A stretch of DNA of 63,964 bases from an uncultured Bacillota bacterium (GTDB lineage: Bacteria; Bacillota; Clostridia; Oscillospirales; Oscillospiraceae), in NCBI GenBank assembly GCA_947650875.1, contig CANSXE010000003.1:1-63964 (forward strand), in the 5' to 3' direction. A program made the position numbers and the translations under genes. Below the pieces are notes generated by a model. The model made no database searches. It was not told the origin of the DNA and saw nothing but the letters and a program-made list of their open reading frames with translations. This document shows, in pieces, positions 38,053 to 51,327 of the stretch (positions are counted from its first letter, which is position 1; each line of letters begins with the position of its first letter).

Positions 38053-38068
38053 GTACATTAAAATTTCC
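38025..38068 (+). repeat. Junction/attachment-site repeat, copy 1
   Basis: CACAGCACCCCATGTGGT, then GTTCCATAAGTACATTAAAA and TTTCCAGGTGAC. The left part is host gene sequence (codons for the TAPHVV motif); the right part runs into the 3' end of the recombinase gene. A second copy with few changes is at 46474-46516, again abutting a recombinase 3' end. This looks like the left junction of a serine-recombinase element. Confidence 0.7.
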
Positions 38069-39635
38069 AGGTGACTTTCACTTTCTGCTGCCCGGTTTCC
38101 ACATTTTTCTCGCAAATTTCAATCTTTTCCACCAGTCCAACCACCAATTCCCGCGGGACAGTTTCCAGTCTCAAAAGCTCTTTCGCCCGCTCTATCAGGT
38201 CGGTCTGATTCTCTGAATACTTCCGCTCCACCAGTTCCTCGCTGATAGTCTCCAGCCGCCGCTCCAGACGGTTTTTTTCATCTAAAAAGGTCTGGTTCAG
38301 CTCCACGAACTGGCTCTCGCTGAGGATACCGCCCACTCTGTCCAGGTACAGCGTTTTCAATGCCTGACTGCGCTTTTCCAACTGGGCAAACAGGTTTTTC
38401 TGCTCCTGTTCCAGCGTCTCCCGACGGGTGTCCTTTTGTGGCTGGAGGTCCTTGAGGTCCAACTGATAATAGGTCTGGACGTAGTACCGGATGCGGTCGG
38501 AAATCAGGTCGATAAGCTGGTCCAGCCGCACCGAGTGGCGGGTACACAGCTTTTCCCTGCCGCTGTCTGCGTACAACCTGCATCGCAAGTAGGCCTGTTT
38601 GCCGTTGGAGCACTTGCTCATGGTGGAGCCACAGTCGGCGCACTTCACCAGCCCAGCCAGCAGATGGGTTTCCCCGGAGCCGTCCGTTCTGGACCGCAGC
38701 TTCAGTCCCCGCTGGACCGTCTCAAAGGTCTCCCGGTCGATAATGGCCTCGTGGGTGCCCTCTACTCGATACCATTCACTTTCCGGCGTGTCGATGATGA
38801 CTTTGGACTTATAGCTAACCTTCCTCCGCCGCCCCTGGATCATCACACCGGTGTACATCTCGTTCGTGAGGATACGTCCCACCGTCACCTTGTTCCACAG
38901 CCCAAAGTCGTTCTTGATGGGATGGTTGCAGGTCCAGCCCCGCTCCGCCTTGTAGCGGGTGGGGTTGGGGACGCCCCGCTGGTTCAGCAGAAAGGCGATG
39001 TTCTGACGGCCGTGGCCCTCCAGCGACCACTGGTAAATCTGCCGCACCACCTCCGCCGCTTCCGGGTCGGGGATGAGGTGATTTTTGTCCGCAGGGTCTT
39101 TGCGGTAGCCATAGATGGGAAAGCCGCCGATATATTTGCCCTCTCTCCGTTTCAGGTCGAAGACCATGCGAACATTTTCCGACAGGTCCTCCAGATACCA
39201 CTCGTTCACCAGGCCGTTGATCTGCCGGGCCTTCTTGTTGCCCTTGACCTCTGTGTCAGCGTTATCCGCCACGGCAATAAACCGGATGCCCCAGATGGGG
39301 AACAGACCGTGGATGTACTTCTCCACCAGCTCCATGTCACGGGTGAAGCGGGACTGGCTCTTGCACAGGACGACCTGGAATTTTTTCTGCTTGGCGGCCT
39401 CGATCATGCGGTTGAAGTCGGGGCGGTTACTGTCGATTCCTGAGAGGTCCTCGTCGCAAAAAATCGAGTAGATATCCCACCCGTGGTCGATGGCGTAGCG
39501 GGTCAGCAACGATTTCTGATTTTGGATGCTCTCCGATTCGGGCTGATGCTTGTCCTCGTCCTCCTTGCTCAGTCGTACATAAATCGCACAAAGGATTTGC
39601 TGCACCTCCTTCAAGGCGTAACTGCTCGCTGTCAA
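38058..39635 (-). CDS. Large serine recombinase (site-specific, element-encoded) 1
   Basis: The 525-residue protein has a resolvase domain with the catalytic YVRLS (Ser about 23), QSRFTRDMELVEKYIHGLFP and the NEWYLEDLSENVR hinge, a Recombinase domain (QIYQWSLEGHGRQNIAFLLN), a zinc ribbon (CADCGSTMSKCSNGKQAYLRC) and a C-terminal coiled coil. It excises or integrates DNA. The reading frame begins at a TTG (39633-39635) without a ribosome site; AAGGAGGTGCAGC lies inside the frame about 25 bases later, so the real start may be a rare codon just after it. About 85% similar by eye to the decayed copy at 46.5-47.9 kb. Confidence 0.9.
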   Translation of the reverse strand: MTASSYALKEVQQILCAIYVRLSKEDEDKHQPESESIQNQKSLLTRYAIDHGWDIYSIFCDEDLSGIDSNRPDFNRMIEAAKQKKFQVVLCKSQSRFTRDMELVEKYIHGLFPIWGIRFIAVADNADTEVKGNKKARQINGLVNEWYLEDLSENVRMVFDLKRREGKYIGGFPIYGYRKDPADKNHLIPDPEAAEVVRQIYQWSLEGHGRQNIAFLLNQRGVPNPTRYKAERGWTCNHPIKNDFGLWNKVTVGRILTNEMYTGVMIQGRRRKVSYKSKVIIDTPESEWYRVEGTHEAIIDRETFETVQRGLKLRSRTDGSGETHLLAGLVKCADCGSTMSKCSNGKQAYLRCRLYADSGREKLCTRHSVRLDQLIDLISDRIRYYVQTYYQLDLKDLQPQKDTRRETLEQEQKNLFAQLEKRSQALKTLYLDRVGGILSESQFVELNQTFLDEKNRLERRLETISEELVERKYSENQTDLIERAKELLRLETVPRELVVGLVEKIEICEKNVETGQQKVKVTWKF

Positions 39636-39883: not shown

Positions 39884-41224
39884 CTAACCACCGCTCCGCT
39901 CACCGTCCAGCAGCTTCAGTAACTCTTGGCGTTGATTCGCTGCATCTCCATTCATCACCCGCTCCAGCAATTTGTTCAGCACCCTGCCCACCTCCGGGCC
40001 GGGGACCACACCAGCAGCGATCACATCCTTACCGTTCACAGACAAATCCTTTAATGAAAGGCACTGCCCCTGGGCAACAATTTCCTCTGCCTTCGCTTTC
40101 ATCTCCTCCAGTTCAACAAAGCGATCCTTGACTAACTCATAATCCTGTCCCATGCCGTCCGCACGCTTGACCTCCAGAAGCTGGAAAAAGGTTTCCGTCC
40201 CCAGACGGCCCATCCATCTGCGGATGGAGCTGTCCTGGCATGGAATCTGAACATCGTGGTGTTCCACCAAGATGCTCACCCGTTCCCGGGTTTTGTTGTC
40301 AAATTTCAGGGCCCGCAGCATCTGGCCGGCCAGCTTGGCGCCGGCTGACGGGTGGCCGTAAAAGTGGTCGATCCCCTTCTCATCGGTGGACTTGCAGCTT
40401 GGCTTGCCGATGTCGTGGAGGAGCATAGTAAGCCGCAGGATTCCATCGGCGGGGGCGGCCTCTACCGCGCGGATGGTGTGTTCCCAGCCGCCCCAGCAGT
40501 GCCAGGGACTGTGCTGCTCCAGCGTAACCAGCGGCTCCAGCTGGGGCCAGAACTGGCAGAGCACGTCTGGATACTGCCGCAAAATATCCCCGGCTTTTTC
40601 ACCCACCAGCAGCTTGCACAGCTCCACATTGATTCGCTCCGCCGTCACATGCCCCAGCATGCGGCGGTTTTCATGGACAGCCTGGGCGGTCCTTTCTTCA
40701 ATCTCACAGCCGAGCACAGCGGCAAAGCGCAAGGCCCGCATGATGCGCAGGCCGTCCTCCCGAAAGCGGTGAGCCGGTTCTCCCACACAGCGGATCAGTC
40801 CGGCTTTAATGTCCCCCACACCGCCGAAGGGGTCCCGCAGGCTGCCGTCCAGCCCCAGAGCAATGGCGTTCATGGTAAAGTCCCGCCGAGCCAGGTCGCT
40901 CTCCAGGCTGGAGACAAACGCTACATAGTCCGGCCGGCGGCTGTCCGAGTATGGGCCCTCGGTGCGGTAAGTGGTGATTTCGTAGGGGTTACCGTCTTCC
41001 AACACAGTAACGGTGCCATGCTTCAGGCCGGTTTCAATGATCCGGTGGCCGGCAAAGCAGCGTTCCACCTCCTCCGGGCGGGCGGAGGTGCAGATATCCC
41101 AGTCGTGGGGTTCGACACCTCGCAGCAAATCCCGGACACAGCCGCCCACCAGCCACGACTCATAGCCTGCACCGTGGAGAATCCGGAGAATATACGCCGC
41201 TCCAGAGGGAATCTCAAATTTCAT
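39884..41224 (-). CDS. cca: CCA tRNA nucleotidyltransferase
   Basis: The enzyme adds or repairs the 3' CCA end of tRNAs. The 446-residue protein has the class II nucleotidyltransferase head (YESWLVGGCVRDLLRG, VEPHDWDICTSA with the catalytic Asp pair), the arginine-containing motif AHRFREDGLRIMRALRFAAV, and an HD domain (AVEAAPADGILRLTMLLHDI, then GKPSC). Bacterial CCA enzymes with an HD domain are common. It is a housekeeping gene, odd between two recombinase genes, which raises the question of whether 39.9-46.4 kb is host chromosome. The stop (39884) follows an AT-rich gap. Confidence 0.93.
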   Translation of the reverse strand: MKFEIPSGAAYILRILHGAGYESWLVGGCVRDLLRGVEPHDWDICTSARPEEVERCFAGHRIIETGLKHGTVTVLEDGNPYEITTYRTEGPYSDSRRPDYVAFVSSLESDLARRDFTMNAIALGLDGSLRDPFGGVGDIKAGLIRCVGEPAHRFREDGLRIMRALRFAAVLGCEIEERTAQAVHENRRMLGHVTAERINVELCKLLVGEKAGDILRQYPDVLCQFWPQLEPLVTLEQHSPWHCWGGWEHTIRAVEAAPADGILRLTMLLHDIGKPSCKSTDEKGIDHFYGHPSAGAKLAGQMLRALKFDNKTRERVSILVEHHDVQIPCQDSSIRRWMGRLGTETFFQLLEVKRADGMGQDYELVKDRFVELEEMKAKAEEIVAQGQCLSLKDLSVNGKDVIAAGVVPGPEVGRVLNKLLERVMNGDAANQRQELLKLLDGERSGG

Positions 41225-41330
41225 TCCGAACTCCTCCTGCCGATCAATATGAGACCATTATACCAGAATTGTACTTTCCTCACAACAACCAACATCTGAT
41301 GAAACCGGGGACATAACATGCCGCCTTTAC

Positions 41331-41365
41331 AGTCAGGACCACCCATATACCGGGTGGTCCTGACT
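41331..41365. terminator. Perfect hairpin between cca and recombinase genes
   Basis: AGTCAGGACCACCC (41331-41344) and its exact complement (41352-41365) with a seven-base loop. On the plus strand TATCTATCCT follows; no long T-tract on either side. The genes diverge here, so it may be the relic of a terminator or a repeat. The rest of the 266-base gap holds a plausible -10 (TAAAAT near 41453) before the recombinase. Confidence 0.5.
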
Positions 41366-41490
41366 TATCTATCCTCTGGCTGGCAGAGGGCAAAAACTCC
41401 GATGAATTTTGTCCCCAAACCGTCCCATGTTTCACAAGGCACTTTTTCGGTAAAATAAGAGCACCACATTTCACAGAAAGGGACTAAACC

Positions 41491-42105
41491 ATGACAGAAA
41501 CAACTTATGGCTATGTACGGGTATCGACACAGGAGCAGAACGAGACGCGCCAGCTGGACGCCATGCGGAAATTTGGGATTGTGGAAGAAAACATCATTGT
41601 AGAAAAGGTGTCCGGAAAGGACTTCAACCGCCCCCTCTACCGGCAGCTCATCAAAAAGCTGGGGCCGGAGGATGTGTTGGTGGTGAAAAGCATTGACCGG
41701 CTGGGCCGGAATTACAATGAGATTTTAGAGCAGTGGGGCGTTATTACCAAGAAGCGGAAAGCCGCTATTGTGGTGTTGGACATGCCCCTGCTGGATACCC
41801 GGCAGGGGCGTGACTTAACCGGAACACTGATCTCAGACATTGTACTCCAGCTGCTCAGCTATGTAGCCCAATCGGAGCGCGAAAATATCCGCCAGCGGCA
41901 GGCGGAAGGGATTGCGGCGGCAAAGGCCAAAGGCGTGCACTTTGGACCGGACCGCCGGCCCCTGCCCGACGGCTTTGAAAAGCTGCGACAGGCGTGGCGG
42001 AGCAAGCAGATAACACTGCGGGCGGCGGCAGAAGCCTGCGGCATTCCCAAGACCACGTTCCGGGACGCCGCCCTCCGGGTGGAACTGGCTGGAAGCGCAA
42101 AATAA
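41491..42105 (+). CDS. Small serine recombinase, resolvase/DNA-invertase family
   Basis: The 204-residue protein has the catalytic motif YGYVRVSTQEQNETRQ (Ser12), then VVKSIDRLGRNYNEILEQW, SYVAQSERENIRQRQAEGI and a C-terminal helix-turn-helix (ITLRAAAEACGIPKTTF). This is the Hin/Gin/Tn3-resolvase architecture and length. Site A of a palindromic pair starts one base after its stop codon, and the flagellin gene follows 520 bases on, so it is the natural candidate to act on those sites. GAAAGGGAC is the ribosome site. Whether it inverts or resolves DNA cannot be decided from sequence. Confidence 0.92.
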   Translation: MTETTYGYVRVSTQEQNETRQLDAMRKFGIVEENIIVEKVSGKDFNRPLYRQLIKKLGPEDVLVVKSIDRLGRNYNEILEQWGVITKKRKAAIVVLDMPLLDTRQGRDLTGTLISDIVLQLLSYVAQSERENIRQRQAEGIAAAKAKGVHFGPDRRPLPDGFEKLRQAWRSKQITLRAAAEACGIPKTTFRDAALRVELAGSAK

Positions 42106-42106
42106 A

Positions 42107-42138
42107 TCTGGACGAAGTAGTATACTTTTCCGTCCAGA
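42107..42138. repeat. Palindromic recombination-site candidate A
   Basis: A 32-base imperfect palindrome with outer arms TCTGGACG / CGTCCAGA and core AGTATACT centred on AT (13 of 16 pairs match). It has the size and two-fold symmetry of a serine-recombinase crossover site and shares TGGACGAAGT and GTATAC with site B, 114 bases away centre to centre. Confidence 0.65.
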
Positions 42139-42173
42139 AATTTCATGAGATATTGTCGCCTGTTCTGTACTAC

Positions 42174-42200
42174 ATATCGGCACATTCTGAAAGGAATTAA
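42174..42200 (-). promoter_or_regulatory. Sigma-D (sigma-28) promoter candidate between sites A and B, pointing away from flagellin
   Basis: On the minus strand GCCGATAT (42174-42181) equals the Bacillus sigma-D -10 consensus as I know it, and TTAA (42197-42200; consensus TAAA) lies 15 bases upstream, the preferred spacing. It currently reads toward the 3' end of the recombinase gene. If the A-B segment were inverted it would read toward csrA2 and flagellin. Confidence 0.6.
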
Positions 42201-42219
42201 GACTTTTTGAAAAAAATTT

Positions 42220-42253
42220 TTTTGGACGAAGTTGTATACAACCTCGTCCAAAA
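42220..42253. repeat. Palindromic recombination-site candidate B
   Basis: A 34-base palindrome with a single mismatched pair, outer arms TTTTGGACGA / TCGTCCAAAA, core GTTGTATACAAC centred on AT. Same centre and outer boxes as site A. The central AT is self-complementary, so direct versus inverted orientation of the pair cannot be defined from the core. Confidence 0.7.
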
Positions 42254-42291
42254 TGCTGTCTGTTTTGCCGGGGAAAGGGGGCGGAGCCGCT

Positions 42292-42465
42292 ATGCTCTGC
42301 ATCACCATGCGAAAGGGCGACTACTTCAAGATCGGCGGTGACATCACCATCCGCTTTGACCACCTGAACAGCGAGCGGGTCCATCTGAGCATCGACGCCC
42401 CCAGAGAGGTCCCCATTGTTCGGGGGAAGGTTCTGGAGCGTCTCAATGACGCGGACGGCGCCTGA
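42292..42465 (+). CDS. CsrA paralogue upstream of flagellin
   Basis: A 57-residue CsrA-fold protein: MLCITMRKGDYFKIGGDITI, RFDHLNSERVHLSIDAP, REVPIVRGKVLERL. The RNA-contact Arg44 position is kept (V-R-G-K), but the first strand differs from the usual MLVLTRK and the protein lacks a long tail. I start at the ATG at 42292-42294 after AAGGGGGCGGAG; an in-frame ATG 20 codons earlier would place codons inside site B. It probably binds GGA motifs in nearby leaders, flagellin first. It is one gene upstream of flagellin and separate from the csrA-fliW pair at 12.5 kb. Confidence 0.82.
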   Translation: MLCITMRKGDYFKIGGDITIRFDHLNSERVHLSIDAPREVPIVRGKVLERLNDADGA

Positions 42466-42514
42466 TTCATTCGGTTTCTTCCGGCTGACGAGCTGGTTGA
42501 AATATAAGTACTGC

Positions 42515-42522
42515 GCCGATCA
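42515..42522 (+). promoter_or_regulatory. Weak sigma-D -10-like box before flagellin
   Basis: GCCGATCA matches seven of eight positions of the sigma-D -10 box, 103 bases before the flagellin ATG. No TAAA stands at the right distance, so activity is doubtful. If it works, flagellin would not depend on the A-B segment. Confidence 0.3.
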
Positions 42523-42624
42523 GCCAAAGCGTTAAAGGCCACGACGCTCTGGCGGCGCACCACAGACCTGTGCCGCACGGTAGGGAAGCCGCGGGCACAC
42601 TAATTTAGAAAGGAGCACAACACT

Positions 42625-44160
42625 ATGCGTATTCAGCACAACATTATGGCGATGAATTCTTATCGCAACTACACCAACAATGCCAACAAGCTCTCCAAGA
42701 ACCTGGAGAAGCTGTCCTCCGGCTACAAGATCAACCGCGCCGGCGACGACGCCGCCGGTCTGGCCATTTCCGAGAAGATGCGCGCTCAGATCACCGGCCT
42801 GAACGCCGCCCAGAAGAACGTCAAGGACGGCATCTCCCTGGTGAAGACCGCTGAGGGCGCCATGCAGGAGATCCAGGACATGCTCAACCGCATGGACTAC
42901 CTGGCCACTCAGTCCGCCAACGGCACCTATCAGGACGAGGTCGACCGTGAGAACCTCCAGAAAGAGGTCACCGCCCTGAAGGACGAAATCAACCGTATCG
43001 CTGATTCCGCCAACTTCAACGGCATCAAGCTGCTGGACGGCTCTCAGCGGGCCCCCTCCGGCGCCACCACCGTGAAGACCGCCTTTAATGACCAGGCGAT
43101 GACCGCCGTCACCGAGACCGCCGGCGCCAGCTTCAAGCAGGAACTGACTATCCAGTCCAGCCAGACTGCCGCTACCGGCGGCAAGGCCGGCACCACCGGC
43201 AAGATGGAGCTGACCTTCCTGGACAAGGACGGCGTCTCCCGGCAGACCACCATCAACTTCACCTATGGCTCCACCACCGCCAAGACCGCTGAGAACATCT
43301 CCAACGAACTGAAGAAGGTCTTCGGCTCCGGCTACAATGTCTCGGTTAACGGCGCTGCGATTACTATCAGCAACCCCAACAAGGAGAAGGACCGCACCAA
43401 TATTCTGGATGTGAAGCAGTACTCCTCCAACGGTACGGAGATCACCGGTACTGCCAATAAGGCAACTGCGGGCGCTGTGACTGCTGGCACAGACAGCAAG
43501 TTTACGGTAGCTTTTGCGACTGTTACTGACCCCAGCAAGAACAACATGTTCGAGATTGACGGCCAGAAGTTCCAGATCGTTAAGCGGGGCGACCAGGTGC
43601 AGGACGGCTACAAGGCCATCTACACCGACGACGGTAAGGGCACCGCAGCCTCTGTGGCTCAGATCGCCGAGCAGCTGAACTCTTACGGCATCAAGTGCGA
43701 GGTCAACGCCACCACCAACACCTCCATCGACTTCATCAAGAGCAACGGCAACGACGGCAAGGGCGGCCTGACTCTCCAGATCGGTGACACCGCTGACAGC
43801 TTCAACCAGATGCAGGTGAAGATCGGTGACATGCACGTCCAGGCTCTGGGCATCCAGTCCGTGGACATCAGCACTCTGACCGGCGCTCAGGGCGCTATCA
43901 AGTCCATCAAGGACGCCATCAACCAGGTTTCTTCTGTCCGCGGCGATCTGGGCGCTGTCCAGAACCGTCTGGAGCACACTCAGAACAACCTGTCCGTGAT
44001 GACCGAGAACATCCAGGACGCCGAGTCCACCATCCGCGACACCGACGTGGCCGAAGAGATGATGAGCTACGTGAAGAACAACATCCTGGTTCAGTCCGCC
44101 CAGGCCATGCTGGCCCAGGCCAACCAGGTGCCTCAGGGCGTTCTCCAGCTGCTGGGCTAA
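42625..44160 (+). CDS. fliC: Flagellin
   Basis: The filament protein (511 residues). The N-terminal D0/D1 part is textbook (MRIQHNIMAMNSYRNYTNNA, LSSGYKINRAGDDAAGLAIS, EKMRAQITGLNAAQKNVKDG). The C-terminal part mirrors it (RLEHTQNNLSVMTENIQDAE, DVAEEMMSYVKNNILVQSAQ, ending VPQGVLQLLG). Between, about 270 residues form a variable surface domain rich in Thr, Ala and Lys. Ribosome site AAAGGAGC precedes the ATG; this GGA could be a CsrA target. It lies far from the main flagellar locus. Two terminators follow. Confidence 0.97.
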   Translation: MRIQHNIMAMNSYRNYTNNANKLSKNLEKLSSGYKINRAGDDAAGLAISEKMRAQITGLNAAQKNVKDGISLVKTAEGAMQEIQDMLNRMDYLATQSANGTYQDEVDRENLQKEVTALKDEINRIADSANFNGIKLLDGSQRAPSGATTVKTAFNDQAMTAVTETAGASFKQELTIQSSQTAATGGKAGTTGKMELTFLDKDGVSRQTTINFTYGSTTAKTAENISNELKKVFGSGYNVSVNGAAITISNPNKEKDRTNILDVKQYSSNGTEITGTANKATAGAVTAGTDSKFTVAFATVTDPSKNNMFEIDGQKFQIVKRGDQVQDGYKAIYTDDGKGTAASVAQIAEQLNSYGIKCEVNATTNTSIDFIKSNGNDGKGGLTLQIGDTADSFNQMQVKIGDMHVQALGIQSVDISTLTGAQGAIKSIKDAINQVSSVRGDLGAVQNRLEHTQNNLSVMTENIQDAESTIRDTDVAEEMMSYVKNNILVQSAQAMLAQANQVPQGVLQLLG

Positions 44161-44201
44161 TGGCTTCGGCCGCTTGAGAAGCGCATACGCTATATTAGAC
44201 C

Positions 44202-44277
44202 GGGGAGGGCGGAAAAATCCGCCCTCCCCTTTAAGATTGCGCAGACAACCTCGCCGCTGTCTGCGCGTCTTTTTTTC
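44202..44277 (+). terminator. Tandem terminators after flagellin
   Basis: First hairpin: GGGGAGGGCGGA / TCCGCCCTCCCC with an AAAA loop (44202-44229), then TTTAAG. Second: GCGCAGAC / GTCTGCGC (44239-44266) followed by GTCTTTTTTT. Double termination suits a very strongly expressed gene. Confidence 0.85.
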
Positions 44278-44305
44278 AGGTTTTAAACAAAATTCCTTAC
44301 GGGAA

Positions 44306-45439
44306 CTAAGCTTCAAAGCTTACAGCCTGACCGTTGACTTCCACCCTCTCCTCGGCGGGAATCAGGAGATATTTTTTGCCGTCGATTACCCTGGTCTCTA
44401 CCAGGTAGCTCTGGTCCGGGCTGACGGACACCGCCGCCTGTGAGGTCTTGATTTCAAATTTCCCGGTGTCGATCAGGTTGGCCGGACTGAGTACCGCACC
44501 CTGGCCAAACTGCTCCCCATACTTCTCCTGGAAGGCACCGACCTTGTCCTGGGAAACGCCGCAGTCCTGGAGGATTGCGGTAATATTCGATGCCGTTATG
44601 GTCAACGGCTCCGGGGATTTGCTCTCTTTATGTTGGGCAATCTGGTCTGTCAGCCGCTCATGGATAGACCGGGCCACCTCAACACTGTAGGTATCCTCCA
44701 GGGCATCGGACAGGGCGCTCTGGAAGGTCTCACGCTGCTCGGCGGCGGACATGGGCGGCTCGGTGTGGAACACGGCGTCAATAAACTCCTGGTGGAGCTC
44801 ATCCGATTTCCGGGAATAGAACAGGGCGTTGTAGATGTTGGCGGCCCGGTCGTCAAAGGCCGGGAACAAAAAGCCCAGCTCCGGGGCGGACACCACCTGT
44901 CCGGCGGTGTAGTGGAACTCGTTGTCGCCGGGGAAATAGTTCAGCTCCGGCCGGCTCATTTTCACCGGGCAGATGCAGCAGAGGATGTAGTTGAACACGG
45001 TTTCTGAGCCGTCAGCCTGGACCTCGCCGTCTTTCCCCCGGTGGGGCACATCGTAGGAATCGCAGGCCATCAGCAGCAGATAATTGTCGCCTCCCATATC
45101 CAGGCGGTCAATCACCTTCCGGTAAAAAGTCTCCCGGGTCTGGCCGTCCTTCAAGGCGCTGGAGCGCAGGGCGGAGAGGAGCTTGTGCTCCTCACTGTCC
45201 ATAACCTGCTGCGTAGAAAAGACAATGTCGATCAGGTTTTTGCCCAGGGCCCCGGACAGAGACTTTTTCAGCAGGCCCAGATATTTTTCGGCCTCCTCCT
45301 CGGGCATTGTTCCCAAGGACTCATCCAGATTGGAGACAATCTCCTTATTGCTGTTGACGTAGCAGCCATAAATGCGGCTGACAGCGTTTTTATCTACGCG
45401 CCACCGGCGGCGCAGTTCACTGACTTCTTTCTGATTCAT
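44306..45439 (-). CDS. DUF4317 family protein
   Basis: The 377-residue protein begins MNQKEVSELRRRWRVDKNAV and SRIYGCYVNSNKEIVSNLDE and contains NYLLLMACDSYDVPHRGKDG, the pattern of DUF4317. The family is widespread in Clostridia and has no known function. The ATG at 45437-45439 has GAGG upstream; a GTG four codons earlier lies inside that site. No membrane or signal segment is seen. It is convergent with flagellin. Confidence 0.85.
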   Translation of the reverse strand: MNQKEVSELRRRWRVDKNAVSRIYGCYVNSNKEIVSNLDESLGTMPEEEAEKYLGLLKKSLSGALGKNLIDIVFSTQQVMDSEEHKLLSALRSSALKDGQTRETFYRKVIDRLDMGGDNYLLLMACDSYDVPHRGKDGEVQADGSETVFNYILCCICPVKMSRPELNYFPGDNEFHYTAGQVVSAPELGFLFPAFDDRAANIYNALFYSRKSDELHQEFIDAVFHTEPPMSAAEQRETFQSALSDALEDTYSVEVARSIHERLTDQIAQHKESKSPEPLTITASNITAILQDCGVSQDKVGAFQEKYGEQFGQGAVLSPANLIDTGKFEIKTSQAAVSVSPDQSYLVETRVIDGKKYLLIPAEERVEVNGQAVSFEA

Positions 45440-46516: not shown

Positions 46517-47893
46517 CAGGTGACTTTCACTTTCTGCTGCCCGGTTTCCACGTTTTTCTCGCAAATTTCAATCTTTTCCACCAATTCCCGCGGGACGGTT
46601 TCCAGCTTCAAAACTCCCGCGCTCGCTCCATCAGGTCGGCCTGATCCTCTGAATGTTCCCTTTCCGCCAACTCCTCCTGGATAGAAGTAAGCCGCCACTC
46701 CAGGCGGCTTACTTCATCTAGAAAGGTCTGGTTCAGCTCCACGAACTGGCCCTCGCTGAGGATACCGGCCACCCTGTCCAGGTACAGCGTTTTCAGCGCT
46801 TGACTGAACTTCTCCAGTTGGGTCGTCAAGGCTTTCCGCTCCTGCTCCAGGGTCTCCTGACGAGTGTCCCGCTGGGGCTGGAGGTCTGCGGGGTTCAGTT
46901 GGTAGTAGGTCTGCACATAGTACCGGATGCGGTCGGAAATTAGGTCGATGAGCTGGTCCAGCCGAACGGAGTGCCGAGTACACAGCTTCTGGTTTCCGCT
47001 GTCAGCGTACAGCTTGCACCGCAGATAAGCCCGCTTTCCGTTGGAGCATTTGCTCATAGTGGAGCCGCAATCGGCGCACTTCACCAGTCCGGACAGCAGG
47101 TGAGTCTCCCCAGTGCCATCTGTCCGGGTGCGCAGCTTCAACCCCCGCTGGACCGCCTGGAAAGTCTCCCGGTCGATGATGGCCTCGTGGGTGCCCTCTA
47201 CCCGATACCACTCGCTCTCCGGGGTGTCGATGATCACCTTGGACTTGTAGCTGACCTTCCGTCTCCGCCCCTGGATCATCACACTGGTGTACATCTCATT
47301 TGTCAAGATTCGCCCCACCGTCACCTTGTTCCACAGGCCAAAATCGTTTTTGATTGGATGGTTACAGGTCCAGCCCCGCTCCGCCTTATAGCGTATGGGG
47401 TTGGGGATGCCCCGCTGGTTCAACAGATAGGCGATGTTCTGGCGGCCGTGACCTTCCAGCGATCACTGGTAAATCTGCCGCACCACCTCCGCCACCTCCG
47501 GGTCGGGGATGATGCGGTTCTTGTCCACAGGGTCCTTCTGGTAGCCGTAGATGGGAAAGCCGCCAATGTATTTGCCCTCCCGCCGCTTCAGGTCGAAGAC
47601 CATGCGGACGTTTTCCGACAGGTCCTCCAGATACCACTCGTTCACCAGGCCGTTGATCTGCCGGGCTTTCTTGTTGCCCTTGACCTCGGTGTCGGCGTTG
47701 TCGGCCACAGCGATGAATCGGATGCCCCAGATGGGGAACAGGCTGTGGATGTACTTCTCCACCAGCTCCATGTCACGGGTGAAGCGGGATTGGCTCTTGC
47801 ACAGGACGATCTGGAACTTTTTCTGTTTGGCGGCCTCGATCATACGGTTGAAGTCAGGGCGATCACTGTCTACCCCAGAGAAGTCTTCATCTG
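46507..47893 (-). pseudogene. Decayed large serine recombinase 2 (paralogue of recombinase 1)
   Basis: The sequence follows recombinase 1 closely but is broken three times. (a) The first 60 or so residues with the catalytic Ser are missing; similarity starts abruptly at DEDFSGVDSDRPDFNRM (about 47.89 kb). (b) A Trp codon (QIYQ-W in copy 1) is TGA near 47465. (c) A frame change near 46612 separates LMERARE from KLETVPRELVEKIEICEK. Zinc ribbon and coiled coil are still readable. It cannot make a working enzyme and is probably an older copy of the same element family. Confidence 0.88.
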
Positions 47894-47963
47894 AAAGTGT
47901 CAAGAGTGGTCAAGCAAAAATATCGACAAAAATTTGCGGCTTAATATAGCGAAAACGCCAGTT

Positions 47964-48122: not shown

Positions 48123-49654
48123 CTATATATCCTCTGCGGCAGCATAGCTTTTCCACTCAATTTCAACGTGCCCATTATCAAACACATGGACTGACTGAAC
48201 CAGAGTATCCAGTATATCACGGGTCAGCTCTTTCGTATCAGCCCGCTGGGGATAGCTTTCATCCTCTCTGTGGCCGACGGTCACGTTGCCCAGTCTATCT
48301 ATCTCTCCGCGAAGCCTTTGAATTTCCCGCTGTTTCTCAGCGCAGATATTCTTGTATTCAGCTTTGGAAATGAGACCGTCAGACCACCTCACAAAGGCGT
48401 CCTTTTTCGCGGACCACTGTTTTTCTATCCGCTGTTCCAAGGCCGTGATCCGCGCCTGTATTGTGGAGATATCCTCAACATCCGTTTTCTTTTTTGGGTG
48501 ATATGCGCCTGCACTTCCGACAGCACACAGGTTTTCAATTCATCTTCAGCAATACGAACTGACTTGCATTCTTCCTGCTGCTGTCCTCTGGACATCGCGC
48601 ATTTGTAGTAAGGCTTGGATATCCTCTGATAAGCCAGGCCCATGCCGCAGACACCGCAAAAAACCTTGCGGGAAAACAGCGGCTGAGGACGCTTGTTTTG
48701 AATCTGGGGCCTTGGAGGAACAACTCGGAAAAGTGCCTGCGCCCTTTGAAATGTCTCCTCCGAGACAATCGGCTCGAAGGCATCCGGGACAACGATCCAG
48801 TTTTCTTTCGGAATCGCTGTTCGCTCTGGATTTCCAATTTCCTTTCGGGTACTGCGCAGGCTGATTAGTTTCCCTGTGTATCTCTCATTTTGTAAAATGA
48901 TCCGCACCGCGGTCTCTGTCCAGGGAACTTCGTCCCTCCGTTTGCTCCAGTTTGTCCGCTTGGCTCCCAGCTGCCGCTTGTGCATGGAAGGCGAGGGAAC
49001 GTGCTCCTCATTCAACCTATTGGCAATCGCCGATCTGAAATGGCCTTCCAACCATAGGTTGAAAATCCTCCGGACGACCTCAGCGGCCGGCGGGTCGATC
49101 TCAAGGCGCCGGCGGTCCTTTGACCCTTTGATATATCCGTAAAAGGGGTACGCGGCGATACACTCACCCCGGGCGGCATACTGACGTTTGGCGGTTTTCA
49201 CGTTGGCGGACACATTCCGGCTGTAGAGCTCATTGATGATATTACGCGCCCCCACGTCCAGATCTCCCGCCACCCCATACAGCTTGGTTTTGGTATCAAG
49301 GCCGTCATTGACCGCGATGAATCGCACATTCAACAGCGGGAAGACCCGTTCCAGATATTCGCCCACTTCTAAACTGTTCCGGCCAAAACGGGACAAATCC
49401 TTGACAAGGATGCAGTTGATCTCACCCCGCCTGACAGCCGCGAACAGAGCTTGGACACCGGGGCGGTCAAAATTAAAGCCAGTGTGTCCGTCGTCAATAA
49501 ACTCCAGGGCATGGCGGCCCTCCAGATCAGGGTGGCTGACGATATAATGATCCAGCAGTGAACGCTGGTTGGCGACGCTGTTGCTCTCCGCTTTTTCTCC
49601 GGGACGGCAATCGTCATCCTGGGAGGAAAGCCGGATGTATTTGCCTATCGTCAC
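48123..49654 (-). pseudogene. Large serine recombinase 3, split by a frameshift
   Basis: The first frame (GTG at 49652-49654, 409 residues) has resolvase motifs KYIRLSSQDDD (Ser10), VKDLSRFGRNSLEVGEYLER, a Recombinase domain and zinc-ribbon cysteines (FCGVCGMGLA, KCAMSRGQQQEECKSVRI). The C-terminal coiled coil continues in the -1 frame (KTDVEDISTIQARITALEQR onwards to 48123). The two frames meet at a run of six A and a G (minus strand, 48489-48495). Joined, the protein would have about 510 residues. A sequencing slip, a real mutation and programmed -1 slippage are all possible; the codon phase does not fit a classic slippery heptamer. Confidence 0.85.
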
Positions 49655-51327
49655 GCGCTCGCCTCCTTGTCCATCTTTTGCAGTTCATCCAGCAGCATCG
49701 CCCGCTCATCCCGATATTTCAGTTCAATCTCGATCCGGTTATTAGCGTAGACGGTGATCCGCTCCACCAGGGCCCGGACCAGCTTGTCCGTCAGCTTTAC
49801 CGTACCTGTGTGCTTCTGAAAGGCGACGATCCAGGGATTCTGTGAGGTCAGCAGCTTTTTCTCACGGCGTTGCTCCTTCTGAAGCCGCGTGATCTGCTCC
49901 TCCAGCGACTGGCCCTCCTGGGCATACCGCCGCTTCATACGGTCGTGGTCCTCCTTGCTCAACACACCGGCCAGGAGGTCCCGCATCAGCCGTTCCCGGA
50001 GCCTATCCAAACTTTTCCGCTCCGCCTTGGCCCGTGCCAGCTCCAGATCAATGGCAGGAACTTTGGAGCTCTGCCTTTTACTGGCCAGGACAGCAGTGTC
50101 TACAGCCAAATTAGCCTCTTGAGCAATCATCTGGCTCAATGTGGTTTTCAAATTCTCCAACGGCAGATATTTATACGAACAGCCGCTTCTTTCTACCAGG
50201 TCGGCGTAGTTGGGGCATATATATCGGTATGCCACTTTTTTCCCTTTGCAGGTAACTGACTTATAGCAGACCATGGGCCGGCCGCAGTCCCCGCAGTATA
50301 TCAGGCCGCGGAAAATATTATCCTCCGCGCTCAGGTAATCGTATTTGCCCAGGTTGGATTGGTATTTTTCCCGGTCTGCCTGCCGGATAGCCTGTACCCG
50401 GTCAAAGGTATCCCGGTCGATGATAGAGGGGTGGGTATTCTCCACAACGACCCACTCGGATGGCGGAAGGCGATGGTCAGGAATCCCTGCATAGAATTGG
50501 GAGCGCCGCCTGCCCTGTACCATGTGGCCCAGATAGACCGGATTTTGCAGCATATTTTTCACGGTCATTTGACTCCAGGGCTTTGGAGTGTCACCGGCAA
50601 AGCGTTTGTCCAGACAGATGCCCTTTTGGTAACGGTAAACTCCGGGGGATAAAATTCCCTCGGTGTTCAGCCAGCGCAGGATAGAGCGAACCGCCTCGCC
50701 CTCCGCCGCCCGGCGGAACATTTCACGGACGATGGGGGCCGTCTCCGGGTCAATGATGATCTTATGCACATCCTTGGGGTCCCGCAGATAGCCGTAAGAG
50801 GCGTAGGCCCCGATGAACTCCCCGCGTCGCTGCTTCTCCCGCAGGACGCTCCCGGATTTTCGGGAGATGTCCATGGAATAGGCCTCGTTGACCAGGTTTT
50901 TCAGCGCCACGGCCAGTGTATCCCCGGCGTTGGCGTCGGTGCTGTCGCAGCCCTCGGAGATGGAGATAAACCGGACGCCCAGGAAGGGAAAGACCCGCTC
51001 CAGGTAGTTGCCGGTTTCCACCGCGTTGCGGCCAAAGCGGGACAGGTCCTTGACCACAATGCAGTCGATTTTCCCTTCCTCTATCGCCCGCATCATCTCC
51101 TGGAAATGGGGGCGGTCAAAATTGGTGCCGGAGTAATTGTCGTCGTACCCCTCCATGCACAGCTCCAAGTCTGGATGCCGGCTGATGTACTCATGGATGA
51201 GGTCCCGCTGGTTCTTGATGCTGTTGCTCTCATCGCTGTCCTGCCGCATCTTCTGGTCCTTCCAGGACAGCCGCCCGTAGGCATAGCAACGGTAAGTCTC
51301 CGGTTTTTGGCACGAAAAAAACTCCAT
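49651..51327 (-). CDS. Large serine recombinase 4
   Basis: A complete 558-residue recombinase: YAYGRLSWKDQ (catalytic Ser21), VVKDLSRFGRNAVETGNYLE, RRGEFIGAYASYGYLRDPKD, Recombinase domain, zinc ribbon (GLIYCGDCGRPMVCYKSVTC, YICPNYADLVERSGCSYKYL) and a coiled coil. Its stop overlaps the start of recombinase 3 by 4 bases, so the two are translated together. Paired large recombinases are known from Ccr-type and Clostridia integrative elements, where both may be needed. This one looks functional. Confidence 0.93.
   Translation of the reverse strand: MEFFSCQKPETYRCYAYGRLSWKDQKMRQDSDESNSIKNQRDLIHEYISRHPDLELCMEGYDDNYSGTNFDRPHFQEMMRAIEEGKIDCIVVKDLSRFGRNAVETGNYLERVFPFLGVRFISISEGCDSTDANAGDTLAVALKNLVNEAYSMDISRKSGSVLREKQRRGEFIGAYASYGYLRDPKDVHKIIIDPETAPIVREMFRRAAEGEAVRSILRWLNTEGILSPGVYRYQKGICLDKRFAGDTPKPWSQMTVKNMLQNPVYLGHMVQGRRRSQFYAGIPDHRLPPSEWVVVENTHPSIIDRDTFDRVQAIRQADREKYQSNLGKYDYLSAEDNIFRGLIYCGDCGRPMVCYKSVTCKGKKVAYRYICPNYADLVERSGCSYKYLPLENLKTTLSQMIAQEANLAVDTAVLASKRQSSKVPAIDLELARAKAERKSLDRLRERLMRDLLAGVLSKEDHDRMKRRYAQEGQSLEEQITRLQKEQRREKKLLTSQNPWIVAFQKHTGTVKLTDKLVRALVERITVYANNRIEIELKYRDERAMLLDELQKMDKEASA

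Follow-up and report, generated by a model that had tools for sequence, protein, structure and literature searches.

The locus analysed here raises the question of whether a short stretch of DNA, enclosed by two palindromes behind a recombinase gene and in front of csrA and flagellin, is a switch that turns flagellin expression on and off by inversion. The window (the whole stretch of DNA analysed, 63,964 bp, which is contig C3 of the 2.09-Mb, 77% complete assembly G000) holds the gene order described in an earlier sequence-only reading, namely recombinase gene, palindrome pair, csrA and flagellin, and the features are collected in Table 1. The locus is very probably a phase-variation switch in which the recombinase inverts a segment carrying a FliA promoter upstream of csrA-fliC. 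The small serine recombinase would bind the two palindromes, cut at their centres and invert the DNA between them. In the assembled state, the FliA/sigma-28-type promoter would point at the recombinase gene and leave csrA-fliC off (OFF); once inverted, it would initiate transcription about 100 bp ahead of csrA, with csrA-fliC under its control (ON).

Table 1. Features of the proposed switch locus, in coordinates of the window
Feature	Position	Strand	Basis
Small serine recombinase, 204 aa, proposed invertase	41491..42105	+	Pfam PF00239
Recombination site 1 (proposed), 28-bp core of the 32-bp palindrome 42107-42138, centre GTATAC	42109..42136	.	Palindrome and pattern search
Proposed invertible inner segment, 86 bp, between the 28-bp sites	42137..42222	.	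Alignment to the L013 segment
-10 box GCCGATAT, sigma-28/FliA-type, facing away from csrA-fliC (predicted OFF)	42174..42181	-	Sequence match
-35 box TTAA, 15 bp from the -10 box	42197..42200	-	Sequence match
A+T-rich DNA ahead of the -35 box, with no more than a resemblance to an UP element	42201..42222	-	
Recombination site 2 (proposed), 28-bp core of the 34-bp palindrome 42220-42253, centre GTATAC	42223..42250	.	
csrA leader and ribosome-binding region	42251..42291	+	Like the relatives' tldR leaders and unlike their csrA leaders
csrA paralogue, first gene past the switch	42292..42465	+	Pfam CsrA, E 7.5e-15
Flagellin (fliC/hag), 511 aa	42625..44160	+	Pfam Flagellin_N and Flagellin_C

The two GTATAC-centred palindromes proposed upstream of csrA-fliC are present in the window. 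Site 1 (16+16, 81% complementary) is centred at 42122/42123 and site 2 (17+17, 94% complementary) at 42236/42237, with the centres 114 bp apart. With up to three mismatches allowed, the pattern TGGACGAAGTNGTATAC had five matches in the window against 0.15 expected, and four of these five were half-sites of the palindrome pair. Over the whole assembly, the same search gave 29 matches versus 36 for a reversed control pattern, and at three mismatches it says nothing genome-wide; matches with zero or one mismatch were found solely at the palindrome pair. No match to the site pattern was found in viral contigs, where none of five pattern matches to the recombinase was confirmed as a relative. A lone window-type GTATAC palindrome was observed before a partial or truncated tldR match in another genome (L212:2560-3340, G044:C152), with neither a partner site nor a recombinase found in the fetched stretch, and this is possibly a rearranged or decaying locus.

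The promoter-like boxes noticed in the sequence-only reading were also borne out. TTAA-N15-GCCGATAT on the minus strand between the palindromes is the sole sigma-28-type match scoring at least 9.5 (of 10) on either strand of the window, and the FliA sigma factor is encoded in the same genome (229 bits, above the cut-off). A weaker sigma-28-like match lies in the csrA-fliC spacer, with a score of 8.5 that was reached by 2.2% of shuffles (7.5 in the sister locus L009). A+T-rich stretches, judged by eye, adjoin the promoter in relatives too. The segment in the window is predicted to be in the OFF state; its promoter is presumably active, and OFF would mean no flagellin. If the segment were flipped about the site axis (axis sum 84359, from the site centres), the -10 box would come to lie at 42178-42185 of the plus strand, with roughly 100 bp left to csrA. 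The csrA-fliC spacer (42466-42624) holds a long leader, by eye much like the leader before flagellin in L214, where a forward promoter is present; no Rfam match was found in this spacer, and no family reached its gathering score in an Rfam search of 40000-45000.

The recombinase was searched in genome contigs, and the best 80 of 184 confirmed loci were taken. Counting the genome of the window itself, 64 of 99 genomes had recombinase matches. Most recombinase relatives among these 80 loci lie away from flagellin genes, some on short contigs, and csrA, tldR or flagellin was present in the fetched stretch of six (L009, L010, L011, L013, L014, and L068; L090 has the same match as L009 and was counted once). 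Of 64 genomes of the genus, again including the window's own, 25 had a match to the window CsrA and 21 to the L011 TldR. In total, 37 loci were examined, comprising the window, the six recombinase loci and 30 of 38 further fetched stretches; the dropped stretches held a CsrA match only (L205 and L206), a recombinase only (L211, L215, L216, and L217) or nothing (L213), or overlapped L209 (L218). Testing was possible at 32 of the 37, since the upstream DNA was too short in L181, L188, and L203, and since L214 (forward promoter, inverted repeat of 13/18, equal to the shuffled control) and L212 (single site) were left out.

In 17 of the 32 loci, the highest-scoring inverted repeat ahead of the first gene matched at 16/18 or better, a level that none of 160 shuffles attained; 11 of the shuffles reached 14/18 and 57 reached 13/18. 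A call required a promoter score of at least 8, scored on both strands between the repeats, so that the position of the promoter between the sites is given by construction. Five tested loci (L068, L187, L193, L200, and L204) had a best score below 8 and were not called; L187 looks ON by eye and was left out of the count. Weak repeats among the called loci were those of L011 (13/18) and of L009, L010, L013, L194, and L201 (14/18), whose calls rest on core and kinship and not on the repeat score. The weakest promoter call was L199, with a score reached by 10.5% of shuffles, followed by L011 with 5%.

A comparison of segment orientation among related genomes, which the sequence-only reading had set as a check, gave both orientations. 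Among the 27 called loci, 15 were OFF, with the promoter facing away from the genes (the window, L009, L010, L011, L183, L184, L185, L190, L191, L192, L195, L196, L197, L198, and L209), and 12 were ON, facing toward the genes (L013, L014, L182, L186, L189, L194, L199, L201, L202, L207, L208, and L210). The sister locus L009 and also L010 and L011 share the orientation of the window, and their segments align with it directly (scores 151, 100, and 99.5, respectively). The nearest ON locus is L013 (79% recombinase identity), against which the window segment scored 64.0 inverted and 25.5 direct, with shuffles at 27.5 (sd 5.8).

Such palindromes could instead be terminators or RNA hairpins, with the minus-strand promoter serving the recombinase region. 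Folded as RNA together with their flanks, the palindromes do reach -14.1 to -21.2 kcal/mol, and T-rich stretches follow the copies on the minus strand; however, terminators need neither a shared GTATAC-like core nor opposite orientations, and a transcript from the window promoter would enter the recombinase gene in antisense. The orientation of the promoter in relatives is moreover independent of the direction of the recombinase gene, which was co-directional at 7, divergent at 4 and not found at 4 of the OFF loci, and co-directional at 7 (one a fragment), divergent at 2 (one cut by the contig end) and not found at 3 of the ON loci. The minus-strand promoter as one serving the recombinase was therefore dropped as a candidate, and the terminator account is scarcely credible. 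The seven called loci with no recombinase in the fetched stretch are L183, L184, L190, L191, L182, L199, and L210. These recombinase-less switches have good inverted repeats; the recombinase search covered G021, G007, G040, G044, G034, and G027, the genomes of all but L184 (in G100), and gave matches elsewhere in each.

The clearest view of the exchange comes from a single genome. Contig C5 of G009 carries two copies of the locus, L208 and L209, about 15 kb apart, whose flanks are 95-96% identical and colinear, while a 131-bp stretch, which takes in the inner segment and the central parts of the two sites, is 96% identical in the opposite direction. The two copies are thus inverted relative to each other between the palindromes. 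The outer half-sites stay and the inner half-sites swap places, indicating that the exchange took place within the palindromes. Both the change of orientation and the place of crossover are therefore seen in relatives. The recombinase match beside L208 is a 99-bp fragment only, so the enzyme of another copy may work this switch.

The sequence-only reading had cautioned that the central AT is self-complementary, which leaves site orientation undefined and deletion as likely as inversion. The first part holds for the window, where the core is symmetric and the site alone therefore does not decide between inversion and deletion. Among 29 site pairs, 18 had AT in both cores, 8 had GT in site 1 and AC in site 2 (L013, L186, L192, L199, L202, L207, L209, and L210), and 3 were unclear (L182, whose cores differ; L190, mis-centred; and L200, not a switch). 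GT and AC are the same dinucleotide on opposite strands, so all eight asymmetric pairs are arranged for inversion; the pairs were located via inverted repeats and are biased to this arrangement, though a direct arrangement would have cost only about 2 of 18 matches. The equal standing of deletion is weakened by these asymmetric cores and by the two orientations in relatives, yet calling required two sites, and a deleted single-site locus would therefore be missed, L212 having one lone site. Inversion is favoured over deletion.

The distances between site centres were 111-116, 124-127 or 136 bp (28 loci), near 11, 12, and 13 helical turns; that of L190, 124 bp, was set by hand, and that of L182, where the cores mismatch, is unsure. 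Helical phasing over the 28 related loci gave an R of 0.82 at 10.5 bp, and periods of 11-11.5 bp gave 0.86, so a spacing locked to helical turns is only suggestive.

The recombinase carries the Resolvase catalytic domain (PF00239, E 2.1e-29, residues 6-149), followed by a C-terminal part that is helix-turn-helix-like by eye, and it is matched by PHROG 125 'DNA invertase' (E 2.3e-49). Its best NCBIfam match is the Mpi invertase model, at 48.7 bits versus a cut-off of 272. It had been described as of Hin/resolvase type, of which the Resolvase domain stands; the closest kinship by phmmer, as judged against PDB chains only, is not with Hin/Gin, since Sin (2r0q, 96.8 bits) and gamma-delta resolvase (61.2) came ahead of the DNA-invertase entries 4m6f and 3uj3 (46.5 and 45.1). 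This kinship, the symmetric AT core of the window and the lone site before the truncated tldR of L212 would suit palindromes that are resolvase or deletion sites or plain binding sites, with the promoter fixed in place. Both orientations nevertheless occur among relatives, one genome holding the two together, and a fixed promoter is very improbable.

Site-arm similarity tracks recombinase similarity, with an r of 0.64 for the part after residue 150 and of 0.39 for residues 1-140; neither value was reached in 5000 permutations, and the co-variation is partly shared ancestry. This set comprised the 19 loci with a full adjacent recombinase, L194 and L208 being out with partial ones. In L193, L200, and L204 (G049:C135, G034:C54, and G020:C25), a second recombinase-like stretch lies between the recombinase and tldR/csrA, with matches only within residues 91-202 (43-47%) and without the catalytic start; the full recombinase of L193 runs in the opposite direction. 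No switch was found directly upstream of tldR/csrA in these three loci. Around the window locus, other serine-recombinase-like genes or fragments, all on the minus strand, were observed at 38058-39635 (Pfam Resolvase, Recombinase, and zinc-ribbon domains) and at 46608-47903, 48425-49654, and 49651-51327 (judged by translation alone).

A switch that once inverted could by now be frozen in the lineage of the window, with csrA-fliC silent or driven from elsewhere, as the shared orientation of the window and L009 and the imperfect site 1 would allow. Against such decay, the recombinase frame is open, its differences from L009 are mostly synonymous (18 synonymous and 4 non-synonymous of 205 codons), and the symmetry of site 2 is kept, so that a frozen switch is unlikely. 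The window recombinase itself presumably performs the inversion and would still be active in the strain.

In most related loci, a further gene stands between the switch and csrA. The first searched-for gene past the switch was the TnpB relative tldR in 17 of the 27 called loci and csrA in 10, the window and L009 included. In all 17 aligned TldR proteins, the three RuvC positions read K or N, R, and E, versus D/E/D in L179 and D/E/N in L167, the TnpB references (alignment by eye). TldR is a nuclease-dead TnpB relative and, according to published work, an RNA-guided repressor of other flagellins. No tldR is present between switch and csrA at the window locus, nor at L009, and none was matched in the window's 77% complete genome by a search that does find tldR in other genomes.

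The leader of the window csrA was compared with both kinds of leader in relatives. Its score against the tldR leaders of L010, L011, and L014 (that of L013 being left out) was reached by 0, 0, and 1 of 500 shuffles, respectively, whereas its scores against the csrA leaders of L010, L011, L013, and L014 were reached by 386, 40, 346, and 164 of 500. Since the csrA leader is tldR-like and not csrA-like, the simple reading is that a deletion took out tldR and would have left csrA behind the tldR leader.

One flagellin was detected in G000 and one in the sister genome G033 (81% complete), besides matches of 34-36% (34-35% in G000). With only one flagellin detected, on/off flagellation is a plausible outcome of the switch, rather than an exchange of flagellin types. 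Loss of tldR and a single flagellin do not always go together: G010 (98% complete) keeps tldR yet has one flagellin match, and two flagellin matches occur in G016 (99% complete), whose switch locus is without tldR. A wider proposal is put forward tentatively, and is rather doubtful: a switch that exchanged flagellin isoforms with an RNA-guided repressor may have been reduced to a plain on/off motility switch, the loss of tldR having put csrA behind the tldR leader and left the species with a recombinase, an inverton carrying the FliA promoter, csrA and a single flagellin. Beyond this locus, very short inverton loops of about 11, 12, and 13 helical turns may be worked by a Sin-like class and not by the Hin-type, enhancer-bound one.

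Compared with known systems, the proposed switch resembles that of Salmonella Hin, in which a serine invertase flips a promoter upstream of flagellin and a flagellin regulator. Both hin and a Fis-bound enhancer lie within the Salmonella segment, which measures about 1 kb, whereas the window has centres 114 bp apart and a recombinase that lies outside the segment and is nearer Sin by sequence. As in Bacteroides Mpi, also its best NCBIfam match, a serine recombinase would flip short promoter segments; Mpi acts on many unlinked promoters, whereas the window has one site pair adjoining its recombinase and a flagellar-type promoter. The RecV protein of Clostridioides difficile belongs to the tyrosine recombinases, and its control is not known to work by turning a promoter. 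In that species, according to the available text of PMC5386303 and PMC7446863, inversion upstream of the flgB operon leads to on/off flagellar phase variation, which is like the window in placing an inversion upstream of flagellar genes and differs in the flgB operon as its target.

The kind of switch is already known, as far as the available text goes, from PMC13418256 (Nat Microbiol 2026), which describes, at csrA-tldR loci, hin genes together with inversions of ~120 bp that carry a FliA-dependent promoter; in Flavonifractor plautii, these inversions and the promoter lie downstream of hin. Common to the window and these hin/csrA-tldR/fliC loci is a small serine recombinase adjoining a segment of ~115-120 bp that bears a FliA promoter and precedes csrA and fliC. 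The window has the adjoining recombinase, a ~115-bp promoter segment by sequence match, and csrA and fliC downstream, with both orientations among its relatives; tldR is absent, and in the window and L009 csrA comes next after the switch. By its available text, the locus search of PMC13418256 began from TldR proteins, so that tldR-less loci were outside its reach. The tldR-less variant, the opposite pair in the same genome, the genus-wide counts, the core and spacing patterns, and the recombinase-site co-variation do not appear in that text as available. Among titles and abstract openings of the published literature, preprints being outside the scope, no other work on these loci was recognised.

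The present comparison gives support across a genus and within one genome to a switch that, in the available text of PMC13418256, rested on one paragraph of comparative data. It also indicates that the switch stands before csrA without an RNA-guided repressor, as in the csrA-first loci counted above, and the role of csrA alone is therefore open to testing. Whether gut commensals express flagellin matters for motility and for immune recognition.
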